DNA of 64,000 bases from Marinihelvus fidelis. GTDB taxonomy: Bacteria > Pseudomonadota > Gammaproteobacteria > Xanthomonadales > SZUA-36. Positions 4,331 to 36,016 of the stretch are shown here, piece after piece. The position numbers and the translations under genes are program-made. The stretch is taken from assembly GCF_008725655.1 (NCBI RefSeq), contig NZ_VYXP01000006.1, forward strand, positions 200,024 to 264,023, in the 5' to 3' direction. Position 1 is the first letter of the stretch, and the number at the start of each line of letters is the position of its first letter. The notes below the pieces were generated by a model. That model had not been told where the DNA came from, did no database searches, and saw only the letters and a list, made by a program, of their open reading frames with translations.

Positions 4331-4487
4331 GGTGACTATTATGCCGCCAAAGCCGTTTTTGGTGGCGGGATTGCGGCTTTCTTGTGGCCAAATTCGTTTT
4401 GTCGCAAGCTGATTTTCCCCCGTTCCACAACCATCCGAGCATGATTCAAAAACTTGCACACGCTACATCAGGTTTTGGTTCATCATT

Positions 4488-4505
4488 TGTGGACAATGTG
4501 GACAA
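4488..4505 (+). repeat. Two tandem TGTGGACAA nonamers upstream of the ncRNA promoter
   Basis: TGTGGACAA occurs at 4488-4496 and again at 4497-4505 with no spacer, ending 8 bp before the -35 hexamer. Read on the minus strand it is TTGTCCACA, one mismatch from the E. coli DnaA box TTATCCACA. It equals the form I recall for high-GC organisms such as Streptomyces. An activator direct-repeat site is the alternative. Inference only. Confidence 0.5.
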
Positions 4506-4513
4506 TTTGCGCT

Positions 4514-4542
4514 TTGACACAATTCTGCCACAGGAGTAATTT
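4514..4542 (+). promoter_or_regulatory. Sigma-70 promoter for the ncRNA
   Basis: A perfect -35 TTGACA (4514-4519) and a 17-bp spacer lead to TAATTT (4537-4542), a weak -10 with T1, A2 and T6 conserved. The predicted start is near 4549-4550. No open reading frame with coding character follows; the next downstream signal is the terminator at 4932-4965. Confidence 0.6.
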
Positions 4543-4549
4543 GAACTCC

Positions 4550-4965
4550 CCGTTGATTGAAACCCACCGGCCGCAAGGTCGGAAACGCCGGAAGGACGGG
4601 ACCGGTCTCCGGACCGGGACAGAACGGAAGGCGACCCAGCGAACGGCCGACCCGCCGAACACTTGGGAGGGTGAAAGAGACGGCCAGCGCCCCGGTGGTA
4701 CAGGGCGCGCTACCCCGACCGGGTTCTGCCATTGATGCGGTCGTACCATGTGGGTGGCTCGAAAGGGATTCGCGGTCCCTGGAGATAGACGCGAAATGCG
4801 TCGATAAAGAACGGCGGGAGGAAGTCCCGCGCCAGGCAGCCGAAGTGCAGAACGGATGCGGAGCCAGGCGAAATTGGAAAGGCCCAGGTGCAACTGCAGT
4901 TCACCTTAAGCGGAGTTCCAGTACCTTCACGGCCGGGGAAGCGCAAGCTTCCCCGGCTTTATTTT
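4550..4965 (+). ncRNA. Candidate structured non-coding RNA (about 415 nt), family not recognised
   Basis: The 700-bp gap between the NTP-transferase and mlaF has no credible gene but has a promoter and a terminator. Between them I can fold seven compact hairpins. They are 4567-4582 (6 bp, GCAA loop), 4602-4617 (6 bp, UCCG loop), 4687-4708 (6 bp), 4764-4780 (5 bp), 4788-4802 (5 bp), 4814-4830 (6 bp, GGAAG loop) and 4886-4906 (5 bp). GGA occurs 16 times from 4560 to 4950, far more than its complement TCC, giving a strand-specific purine bias. It does not show the conserved RNase P, tmRNA, 6S or SRP motifs. A CsrB/RsmZ-like sponge is possible, but only one GGA sits in a clear loop. Function unknown. 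Confidence 0.65.
4932..4965 (+). terminator. Rho-independent terminator of the ncRNA
   Basis: An 11-bp perfect stem (4932-4942 with 4947-4957) is closed by a GCAA tetraloop and followed by TTTATTTT. It lies 72 bp before mlaF and upstream of that gene's own -10-like TACAAT (4995-5000), so it ends the ncRNA rather than the mla operon. Confidence 0.9.
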
Positions 4966-4994
4966 GGGCCACTGTTTCGCGCCCCCATCCGTAA

Positions 4995-5036: not shown

Positions 5037-5822
5037 ATGTCTTCCAACCACGAACACGCCATTCGCCTGGAGAACGTCGTCTTCCGACGCGGCGACCGCG
5101 CGATCCTGGACCACGTGAGCCTGACCATCCCAAGGGGTGCGATCGCCGCGGTGATGGGCCCCAGTGGCGTGGGCAAGACCACGGTGCTGCGGCTGGTTTC
5201 AGGCCAACTCAGGCCGGATTCAGGCCGCGTGCTGGTCAACGGCGAGGACGTCTCCTCCATGGGCCGCCGGGCGCTGTTTCGCATGCGGGAGAACCTGGGG
5301 TTTTTGCTCCAGAACGGTGCGCTGTTTACCGACCTGACGGTGTTTGAGAATGTCGCCACGCCGTTGCGCGAGCACCGCGATTACGACGATGAGCGCATCG
5401 AGGCGATCGTCAGCGAGCGGCTGGCATCCGTGGGCCTGGAAGGCACCGGGCAGCTGATGCCGCATGAACTGTCCGGCGGCATGGCGCGGCGCGTGGCACT
5501 GGCGCGGGCCGTCGCCCTGGACCCGTCGATCGTGCTTTTCGACGAGCCCATGGCCGGCCTGGACCCGATTGCCGTTTCAACCATCAATGAACTGATACGC
5601 CGTACCAACGACGAACGCGGCCTGACCAGCGTCGTGGTCACCCACGATGTCGAGCAGATGTCGCGGCTCGCTGACTACTGCTACATCCTGGTGGATGGCC
5701 GGATTGCCGGCGAGGGCCCGCCGTCGGAACTGGCCGACAGCCCCGACGCCGCCGTCCGCCAGTTCATGAATGGCCAGATGGACGGCCCGATTCCGTTCCG
5801 GTACGCGGGAGCCGGCGGCTGA
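5037..5822 (+). CDS. mlaF: Phospholipid ABC transporter ATPase MlaF
   Basis: This 261-residue ABC ATPase has Walker A GPSGVGKTT (41-49), signature LSGGM (145-149), Walker B IVLFDE (165-170) and the switch histidine in THD near 203. With MlaE and MlaD it forms the inner-membrane complex that moves glycerophospholipids between the inner membrane and MlaC, maintaining outer-membrane asymmetry. It is the first gene of mlaF-E-D-C-A. The stop overlaps the mlaE start. No mlaB (STAS subunit, which stabilises MlaF in E. coli) follows mlaC. Confidence 0.96.
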   Translation: MSSNHEHAIRLENVVFRRGDRAILDHVSLTIPRGAIAAVMGPSGVGKTTVLRLVSGQLRPDSGRVLVNGEDVSSMGRRALFRMRENLGFLLQNGALFTDLTVFENVATPLREHRDYDDERIEAIVSERLASVGLEGTGQLMPHELSGGMARRVALARAVALDPSIVLFDEPMAGLDPIAVSTINELIRRTNDERGLTSVVVTHDVEQMSRLADYCYILVDGRIAGEGPPSELADSPDAAVRQFMNGQMDGPIPFRYAGAGG

Positions 5823-34999: not shown

Positions 35000-36016
35000 A
35001 TGACGACCGTGCGACAGGCCCGAAAACTGGTGCTTTCCCTGCTGCTCTTGCCCGCCCTGTGTGCCCACGCCAACCCCGGCAATGGGGTGGCGATCGCCAT
35101 TCACGGCGGCGCCGGCACCATCAGCCGCGCGGAAATGACTGCGGAGCGTGAGGCCGCGTTCCGGGCCAAGCTGACCGAGGCCGTGACCGCCGGCCACCAG
35201 GTCCTGATTGAAGGCGGCGATGGCGTCGACGCGGTGCGCACGGCCATCAACATCCTGGAAGACTCGCCGTTGTTCAACGCCGGCAAGGGCGCCGTGTTCA
35301 CGGCGGCGGGCACTAACGAACTGGACGCCTCGGTGATGGACGGCGCCACCCGCAACGCCGGCGCGGTTGCGGGCGTGAAACACATCCGCAACCCCATTGA
35401 TCTCGCTATCAGCGTGATGAACGACTCCAAGCACGTGATGCTCTCCGGCGACGGCGCCGAGGCCTTCGCCCGCGAGCAGGGTTTCGAGATGATCGACCCG
35501 TCGTACTTCTACACCGAGCACCGCTGGAAGGCGCTGGAAAAGGCACGTGAAGGTGAACGTGACGCCGCGGCCTCGCTGGCCGAGCCGCCGAAGCAGACCT
35601 TCTTCTCCACCGTCGGCGCGGTGGCGCTGGACGCCAACGGCGACCTGGCCGCGGGCACGTCGACGGGCGGCATGACCAACAAGCGCTGGGGCCGCATCGG
35701 CGACTCACCGGTGATCGGCGCGGGCACTTTCGCCGACAACGCGTCCTGCGCCGTCAGCGCGACCGGGCACGGCGAGTTCTTCATCCGCTGGGTGGTGGCC
35801 TACGATATCTGCCAGCGGGTGGCGCACGGCGCATCCATGACCGAGGCGGCCGGGACGGTCATCAATGACGTGCTGGTGGAGGCCGGCGGCACCGGCGGCG
35901 TGATCAGCCTGGATGCCAACGGCGATATCGCCATGCCGTTCAATACCGAGGGCATGTATCGCGCCAGCATCGACACCGACGGCAAGCTGTACGTGGGGAT
36001 TTACGGCGACGAGTGA
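35000..36016 (+). CDS. iaaA: Exported isoaspartyl peptidase / L-asparaginase (Ntn hydrolase)
   Basis: This 338-residue protein is made as a precursor that autocleaves before a threonine nucleophile. The conserved segment is TVGAVALDANGDLAAGTSTGGMTNKRWGRIGDSPVIG, placing the nucleophile at Thr204. It removes beta-aspartyl residues from dipeptides. Odd points: a Sec signal peptide (residues 1-24) predicts a periplasmic enzyme, and the residue before Thr204 is Ser instead of the usual Gly. AGGAGAAC before ATG 35000 is a strong ribosome site. The 3' end overlaps metF by 16 bp. Confidence 0.92.
   Translation: MTTVRQARKLVLSLLLLPALCAHANPGNGVAIAIHGGAGTISRAEMTAEREAAFRAKLTEAVTAGHQVLIEGGDGVDAVRTAINILEDSPLFNAGKGAVFTAAGTNELDASVMDGATRNAGAVAGVKHIRNPIDLAISVMNDSKHVMLSGDGAEAFAREQGFEMIDPSYFYTEHRWKALEKAREGERDAAASLAEPPKQTFFSTVGAVALDANGDLAAGTSTGGMTNKRWGRIGDSPVIGAGTFADNASCAVSATGHGEFFIRWVVAYDICQRVAHGASMTEAAGTVINDVLVEAGGTGGVISLDANGDIAMPFNTEGMYRASIDTDGKLYVGIYGDE

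Follow-up and report, generated by a model that had tools for sequence, protein, structure and literature searches.

What lies between a divergently oriented MobA-like NTP transferase gene and mlaF in Marinihelvus fidelis, and is it a gene in its own right? We analyzed a stretch of 64,000 nucleotides of contig NZ_VYXP01000006.1 (positions 200,024 to 264,023 of the forward strand; hereafter, the window), for which an earlier note had proposed a promoter-bearing, terminated, structured noncoding RNA of no recognized family. That proposal held: no Rfam family matches the locus, and homologues with covarying stems exist. Positions 4514-4966 look like a stand-alone RNA gene, with mlaF (encoding an ABC ATPase, start at 5037) and, by reading of the translations, the rest of its operon downstream. 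The parts of the gene are as follows.

4514-4542, + strand: promoter TTGACA, 17-bp spacer, TAATTT (-35 at 4514-4519, -10 at 4537-4542)
4546-4965, + strand: noncoding RNA, placed by homologues and fold (z -3.25), with a predicted 5' end
4931-4966, + strand: intrinsic terminator, 12 pairs plus a T-rich tail, placed by terminator scan and pairing (286 of 297 cells paired)

The promoter hexamers and spacer are present where the earlier note had put them, and the pattern TTGACn-17-TAnnnT recurs at the same position in all 31 homologous loci of the same family; copies in a second family, f5, have TTGACn-17/18-TAGCTT in three of three loci. TAATTT is a poor fit to the -10 consensus, and a consensus scan did not call this promoter. 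At the other end, a hairpin at 4931-4958 is followed by TTTATTTT; the earlier note had placed this terminator correctly and given it an 11-bp stem, which we count as 12 pairs. A terminator scan of a 2-kb stretch found two sites against 1.7 expected by chance, so the call rests on conservation and not on the scan: across 27 sequences, 7 of 11 pairs show changes on both sides, with 286 of 297 cells paired.

The fold of the + strand beats 100 of 100 dinucleotide shuffles (z -3.25), and for the - strand 12 of 100 shuffles are equally good (z -1.19). The GCAA-capped and UCCG-capped hairpins reported earlier are found at 4567-4582 and 4601-4617. Open reading frames of up to 145 amino acids traverse the region, and across 27 homologues the longest run without a stop has anywhere from 63 to 185 codons. 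Because this run is inconsistent among homologues, no coding signal is apparent, and we rejected a protein-coding reading; the roughly 400 nt that the earlier note had described as noncoding become about 420 nt without a consistent reading frame. In 40-nt steps, identity between the window and genome G001 is 0.85-0.97 over 4570-4969; it is 0.51-0.57 upstream (4370-4489), 0.78 at the promoter (4490-4569), and 0.78 and then 0.58 in the spacer 3' of the RNA, a profile that speaks for constraint on the RNA. By eye, DnaA-box-like TGTGGA(T/C)A words lie at 4488-4507, just 5' of the promoter, and, in the alignment, also in L002, L005, L015 and L016 (genus g1).

How widely is this RNA distributed? Apart from the M. 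fidelis genome itself, BLASTN found it in 29 of 36 same-family relatives; in three of these, all of genus g8, only short matches were seen. R1, a covariance model built from 25 sequences to represent the 5' core, matched 33 of 39 family genomes and 21 of the 22 good ones, with one locus per genome except for second matches in G035 and G061. We read the former as one copy that contig ends divide and the latter as a strain variant lying at the end of a contig. R1 gave no match in the other 211 examined genomes of the order or in 368 others of the class. A wider model that included divergent members (R3) added three genomes of f5, a second family of the order, at 41-44 bits; beyond f5, it matched only the first family among 398 order genomes and only the M. 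fidelis genome among 398 phylum genomes. The f5 copies keep the P3 hairpin, the UGCA loop and GAGATAGAC..GTCGAnAAA, and they, too, end with a T tail. When named genomes were scanned with a pattern, 28 contig stretches came up, all from uncultured bacteria, labeled Lysobacterales (13), Xanthomonadales (5), Gammaproteobacteria (5), Oceanospirillales (3) and Chromatiales (2). Wider occurrence is possible because the strict filters of the large scans lose weak matches.

G008 (96% complete) is the only good family genome without a detectable copy. On the six R1-negative genomes, a model of the 3' core (R2) gave weak matches in four and the core motif in none; its match in G008 falls inside a 690-amino-acid open frame. 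A 28-nt BLASTN match in G051 lies on a different contig from the RNA. For the comparisons below, L011 and L013, both cut by contig ends, were excluded from alignments A1 and A2 and from the 27-sequence set (L013 is included in A3); L035 and L064 joined after A1 and A2 had been built; L028-L030 were replaced by longer stretches, L032-L034; these divergent copies and L093 stand outside the 27-sequence set; and the f5 copies (L109-L111) enter the counts over 34 RNAs and stand outside A1-A3.

The earlier note had suggested checking related genomes and Rfam. The first search yields conserved homologues with covarying stems and the second no match to any known family: neither the window nor eight homologue loci contain an Rfam 15 family at gathering score, and three weak matches around the RNA (E 0.22-2.4) are all far under the gathering scores. 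A literature search over titles and abstract starts turned up no description of the RNA that we noticed, and a search with the motif string gave, among the matches listed, unrelated titles. We take the RNA to be an undescribed family within a known kind, the large structured bacterial noncoding RNAs.

Comparison of the homologues suggests a core of helices, two of them nested within others, and two long-range pairings.

4550-4554 with 4679-4683, + strand: P1, CCGTT with GACGG; 131 of 135 cells paired, no both-sided change
4562-4565 with 4669-4672, + strand: P2, ACCC with GGGT, inside P1; 98 of 108 cells paired, two both-sided pairs
4687-4708, + strand: P3 hairpin, GCGCCC/GGGCGC, with TGGTAC in its loop; both-sided changes in 6 of 6 pairs
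4709-4714 with 4753-4758, + strand: P4, GCTACC with GGTGGC; 100% of cells paired, three both-sided pairs
4717-4721 with 4738-4742, + strand: P5, GACCG with CGGTC, inside P4; 99.2% of cells paired, one both-sided pair
4764-4780, + strand: P6 hairpin, AGGGA/TCCCT; both-sided change in 4 of 5 pairs
4814-4830, + strand: P7 hairpin, GCGGG/CCCGC; 100% of cells paired, 2 of 5 pairs both-sided
4833-4836 with 4864-4867, + strand: P8, CAGG with CCAG; 92.9% of cells paired, 3 of 4 pairs both-sided, one mismatch in the window
4887-4905, + strand: P10 hairpin, GGTGCAAC-TGCA-GTTCACC, with a self-complementary UGCA loop; 86.0% of cells paired, 4 of 6 pairs both-sided
4696-4701 with 4743-4748, + strand: long-range pairing PK1, TGGTAC with GTACCA; 161 of 162 cells paired (27 sequences), no both-sided change
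4724-4729 with 4847-4852, + strand: long-range pairing PK2, TTCTGC with GCAGAA; 161 of 162 cells paired, 2 of 6 pairs both-sided

Judged by counts, the predicted helices are well supported. In A1, 99.0% of cells are paired over 28 pairs, 14 of which show both-sided changes; none of 500 shuffles scored as high, and slid versions were 34-40% paired. A2 has 91.7% of cells paired and both-sided change in 9 of 20 pairs, and A3, which includes divergent members and was fitted to the model, has such change in 16 of 24. Covariation support is best for P3, P4, P6, P7, P8, P10 and the terminator; there is too little variation in P1 and P5 for such a judgment. A further candidate helix, P9 (TTGGA/TTCCA), was rejected, with only 100 of 135 cells paired. 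Against a custom-made phylogeny-preserving null, 5 of 79 proposed pairs reached E<0.05 (one in P3, one in P7 and three in the terminator), and in the same kind of test over all column pairs none was significant (best E 0.22); such strict statistics are limited because there are only 27 related sequences.

PK1 joins the loop of P3 to the strand 3' of P5 and is near-invariant in the first family. A 6-bp match is possible in 34 of 34 RNAs, and each single case is weak because 37% of shuffled partner stretches give such a match too; in f5 the pairing has other letters (GGTGGT with ACCACC; GTGGTA with TGCCAC). PK2 links both halves of the RNA and reads CTCTGC with GCAGAG in other genera. No pair of either was significant in the phylogeny-preserving test on the 27 sequences. 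On this comparison, we regard PK2 as supported and PK1 as probable.

Among 34 RNAs measured, length ranges from 361 nt (L018) to 902 nt (L027). Members without large arrays have 361-428 nt; the rest of the range comes from growth of hairpin arrays at two fixed sites.

4583-4644, + strand: variable site 1, about one hairpin in the window, between the 5' strand and GGCCGACCC
4782-4808, + strand: motif GAGATAGAC..GTCGATAAA flanking variable site 2, with a hairpin at 4788-4802 in the window

In genus g9, some genomes (L010, L012, L013, L014 and L064) have longer hairpin arrays at site 1, which is almost empty in L017-L027. At site 2, inserts of 200-559 nt occur in 9 of 27 homologues, inside the hairpin that follows GAGATAGAC. 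By eye, the large inserts consist of arrayed short hairpins, many of them capped by GNRA or UUCG-type loops, with purine-rich links in between; their commonest 8-mer is GCTTCGGC. Within the RNA gene these tandem arrays change fast; their periods are 28/56 nt in L012 and L013, at site 1, and 34/58/68 nt in L027, at site 2. GAGATAGAC and GTC(G/A)AnAAA are present in all 34 RNAs, which were found partly by the same stretch, and the TGCA loop of P10 in 31 (it is absent in L004, L027 and L093).

Conservation extends upstream of the promoter, to two elements.

4393-4407, + strand: upstream element TTCGTTTTGTCGCAA, a putative activator site; in 31 of 31 family loci with at most one mismatch
4445-4456, + strand: second upstream box TTCAAAAACTTG (TTCA..CTTG); in 27 of 27 loci, 56-57 bp before the -35

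The upstream element (TTCGCTTYRTCGCAA) occurs in every one of 31 first-family loci, at 104-107 bp from the -35 in 26 loci, 96 bp in L024 and 7 bp in four divergent loci, and it was not found in the f5 copies. All 28 contig stretches of the pattern scan carry the word GGTCGTACCA (at most one mismatch) just 5' of the match. Such conservation suggests control of the RNA gene by an activator; the gene is an independent unit and probably a controlled one. The genome of M. fidelis has two exact sites. The other, at L094:1501-1515 (G000:C4:75026-75040), is flanked by gpsA and by a gene for a class II ribonucleotide reductase (names read from translations) and could be there by chance.

The GacA/UvrY palindrome is TGTAAG-N6-CTTACA. 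None was found near the RNA promoter, the best in the 27 upstream regions having 3-5 mismatches, and the window has one site with 3 mismatches, at 35988, which is below chance. In controls, csrB has a site with 1 mismatch and the csrC region one with 4, so the pattern misses some true genes. As far as its letters go, the upstream element is different from this palindrome. The TTCA..CTTG box was considered as an IHF site and rejected: its fit to the consensus is loose, 26 of 27 sequences do no better than many shuffles, and only in one of the 27 (L003) is the best IHF match reached by at most 5 of 100 shuffles. According to PMC4682653, UvrY binds far upstream of csrB, with IHF between; a promoter with a distant upstream element is a likeness to that gene.

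Is the RNA transcribed? One levivirus contig (IMGVR_UViG_3300042536_000016; L063) encodes a maturation protein, a replicase and probably a coat protein, the last without a Pfam match. Downstream of its replicase gene, and in the same orientation, lie about 410 nt of the RNA, scoring 156 bits to R1. The RNA part lies on the minus strand of L063, at about 227-639, followed by about 226 nt of other sequence, and its pieces are 80-94% identical to homologues, among the matches listed. Because leviviruses have no DNA stage, the contig should derive from sequenced RNA; if so, expression of the RNA in that sample is most likely, for a chimera as well as for a recombinant. This is indirect support for transcription of the RNA. 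The join itself could be an RNA chimera or an RNA phage with a captured host RNA, or maybe an artifact of assembly or reverse transcription. The tail of the contig has no match in the 39 family genomes and none in Rfam; the contig has only short replicase matches to known single-stranded RNA phages and no close relative among viral contigs. Two further scans of viral contigs found nothing.

As to the neighborhood, mlaF lies downstream in 30 of 33 family loci tested, and the stretch from terminator to mlaF contains a TACAAT box in 22 of 27 loci. In genus g8 the RNA adjoins a lysC-lysA fusion gene, and in L033 ychF flanks it opposite; at the three f5 loci its neighbors are glnE and a transposase-like gene, one on either side. 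The place upstream of mlaF given by the earlier note is thus the usual one and not an essential one. The f5 transposase-like gene, divergent beside the RNA (L109:3219-4166, L110:3318-4292, L111:2666-3595), is of RAYT type by reading, with a Y1_Tnp match in L111 only and a DnaA-like helix-turn-helix match just below cut-off in L109 and L111. By eye, repeated boxes like ACAAnCCYGACCCC precede the RNA promoter in f5, and in L093, of the divergent genus g11, the interval from the RNA to mlaF holds inverted repeats that are REP-like and have a TGTAGG foot.

These neighborhoods bear on two other explanations. That mlaF follows so regularly would fit a leader or attenuator acting in cis on the mla operon; such a leader should always adjoin the gene and be co-transcribed with it. 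However, a terminator and usually the TACAAT box intervene, and because the g8 and f5 copies are kept at other loci, away from mlaF, we rejected the leader reading and consider it very improbable. The least probable reading is that of a selfish or REP-like array element in an intergenic site. The hairpin arrays, with units of 28/56 and 34/58 nt, and the transposase-like gene beside the f5 copies are features that such an element might have, but the RNA occupies one locus per genome (the extra matches in G035 and G061 being read as a split copy and a strain variant), and promoter, core and terminator are all conserved. A ribozyme with a conserved core and expandable peripheral domains, like RNase P or group I/II introns, is improbable, too, although the core motif is fixed in 34 of 34 RNAs with expansion at two sites, and long-range pairings are present. 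The class A RNase P RNA of bacteria is of similar size and likewise has GNRA hairpins, long-range pairings and an expandable periphery, and an early word similarity had pointed to it; RF00010, however, matches another locus of the genome (337 bits) and nothing here even at E 5, in agreement with the earlier note, which could not match the RNA to RNase P. Nor does any other Rfam family match, and the ends of the RNA resemble a promoter and a terminator, not splice sites.

The earlier note had also raised the possibility of a CsrA sponge, that is, a CsrA/RsmA-titrating small RNA like CsrB or RsmZ, whose GGA sites would bind CsrA and relieve repression, with longer arrays binding more. Like CsrB/CsrC and RsmX/Y/Z, this is a stand-alone, terminated RNA with many GGA in gammaproteobacteria that encode CsrA (31 of 39 genomes, including that of M. 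fidelis), and its promoter has a far-upstream element, as csrB does (PMC4682653). For the window, where 16 GGA had been reported, we count 17 in 4546-4965 and 20 in 4488-4965. Homologues have 9-45 GGA per RNA, with z scores of -1.7 to 2.6 against dinucleotide shuffles (27 homologues), the upper end being near that of CsrB (2.8); L008 reaches 2.7 in the comparison with CsrB. The insert arrays are enriched in GGA (197 versus 145 expected, z 8.2), and the longest RNA has 16 GGA predicted to be free versus 17 in CsrB. By GGA count and composition alone (z up to 2.6-2.7 versus 2.8), the RNA would be compatible with a sponge. Its anatomy argues otherwise, with Escherichia coli CsrB and CsrC as yardsticks. 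CsrB-type RNAs carry GGA in hairpin loops or other unpaired stretches, with 22 GGA in CsrB, according to PMC7652899. In the window RNA, GGA occurs in 1 of 12 predicted hairpin loops (the earlier note had remarked that it is rare there) versus 9 of 14 for CsrB in the same test, and it is little freer than the average base (mean unpaired probability 0.46 versus 0.39 for all bases; CsrB, 0.80 versus 0.44). Across seven homologues, 0-2 of 8-21 predicted loops contain GGA (CsrB, 9 of 14; CsrC, 4 of 7), and in predicted folds GGA is unpaired at 0.30-0.54 (all bases, 0.39-0.44) versus 0.80 in CsrB and 0.61 in CsrC. ANGGA has z scores of -1.3 to 1.0 in the 27 homologues, a weak test in which CsrB and CsrC themselves score 1.2 and 1.4. 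Moreover, GAA, AAG and CGG rise alongside GGA in the arrays, GGA falls under expectation in L007, L015 and L016, the RNA promoter lacks a nearby GacA/UvrY palindrome of the kind csrB has, and, unlike CsrB/CsrC and RsmX/Y/Z, the RNA has conserved primary sequence and long-range pairings. On this anatomy, we judge a sponge unlikely.

What remains closest in kind are the ornate large RNAs. In PMC12286853, GOLLD, ROOL and OLE are described as bacterial RNAs, large and pseudoknotted, whose self-assembly is partly mediated by self-complementary loops; our RNA resembles them in being large and pseudoknotted, with a self-complementary loop and a variable segment in a fixed core. It is large, complex, pseudoknotted and stand-alone, PK2 having two both-sided pairs and PK1 being invariant. 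The Rfam 15 models of GOLLD, ROOL and OLE match neither the window nor eight homologue loci. Going by the same paper (PMC12286853), our RNA differs from ROOL in being smaller (361-428 nt without large arrays, versus 659 nt for one ROOL example) and in lying at an intergenic site of the main gene set where ROOL occurs in phages and prophages. A 520-nt RNA of Lactobacillus salivarius, which PMC12286853 cites as ROOL, was measured to be abundant, according to PMC5643018.

Our preferred reading, to which we assign a probability of roughly 0.6, is that the RNA represents an undescribed family of large, trans-acting, pseudoknotted RNAs with their own promoter and terminator that act as the scaffold of a ribonucleoprotein or RNA assembly. 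The sequence data show the gene layout, the family, the covarying helices and the independence from mlaF; an activator, a partner, an assembly and a scaffold role are what we infer beyond them. In this model, a DNA-binding activator at the upstream element would switch the RNA gene on under some condition. The RNA core would be held by helices P1-P8 and P10 together with one supported and one probable long-range pairing, and the two peripheral sites would carry fast-changing hairpin arrays around the fixed motif GAGATAGAC..GTCGATAAA. The RNA would then act in trans as the scaffold of a ribonucleoprotein or an RNA-RNA assembly, in which the self-complementary UGCA loop could pair two RNA copies and the hairpin arrays might serve as added binding or spacing modules. 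A more specific version, that RNA copies made from an activator-dependent promoter join through their UGCA loops into an RNA-only or RNA-protein machine whose size or binding capacity is set by the arrays, is speculative, and we put it forward only tentatively.

Among bacterial RNAs, large structured ones with conserved cores are rare; several have proved to be ribozymes or self-assembling particles. The present RNA offers an alignable family across two bacterial families, with natural length variants of 361-902 nt, covarying helices and long-range pairings, and with a conserved control element in the first family. As the records found come from uncultured bacteria, genetic work is for now out of reach. 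Given the alignable family, its length variants and its helices, folding, oligomerization and partner binding should be testable in vitro.
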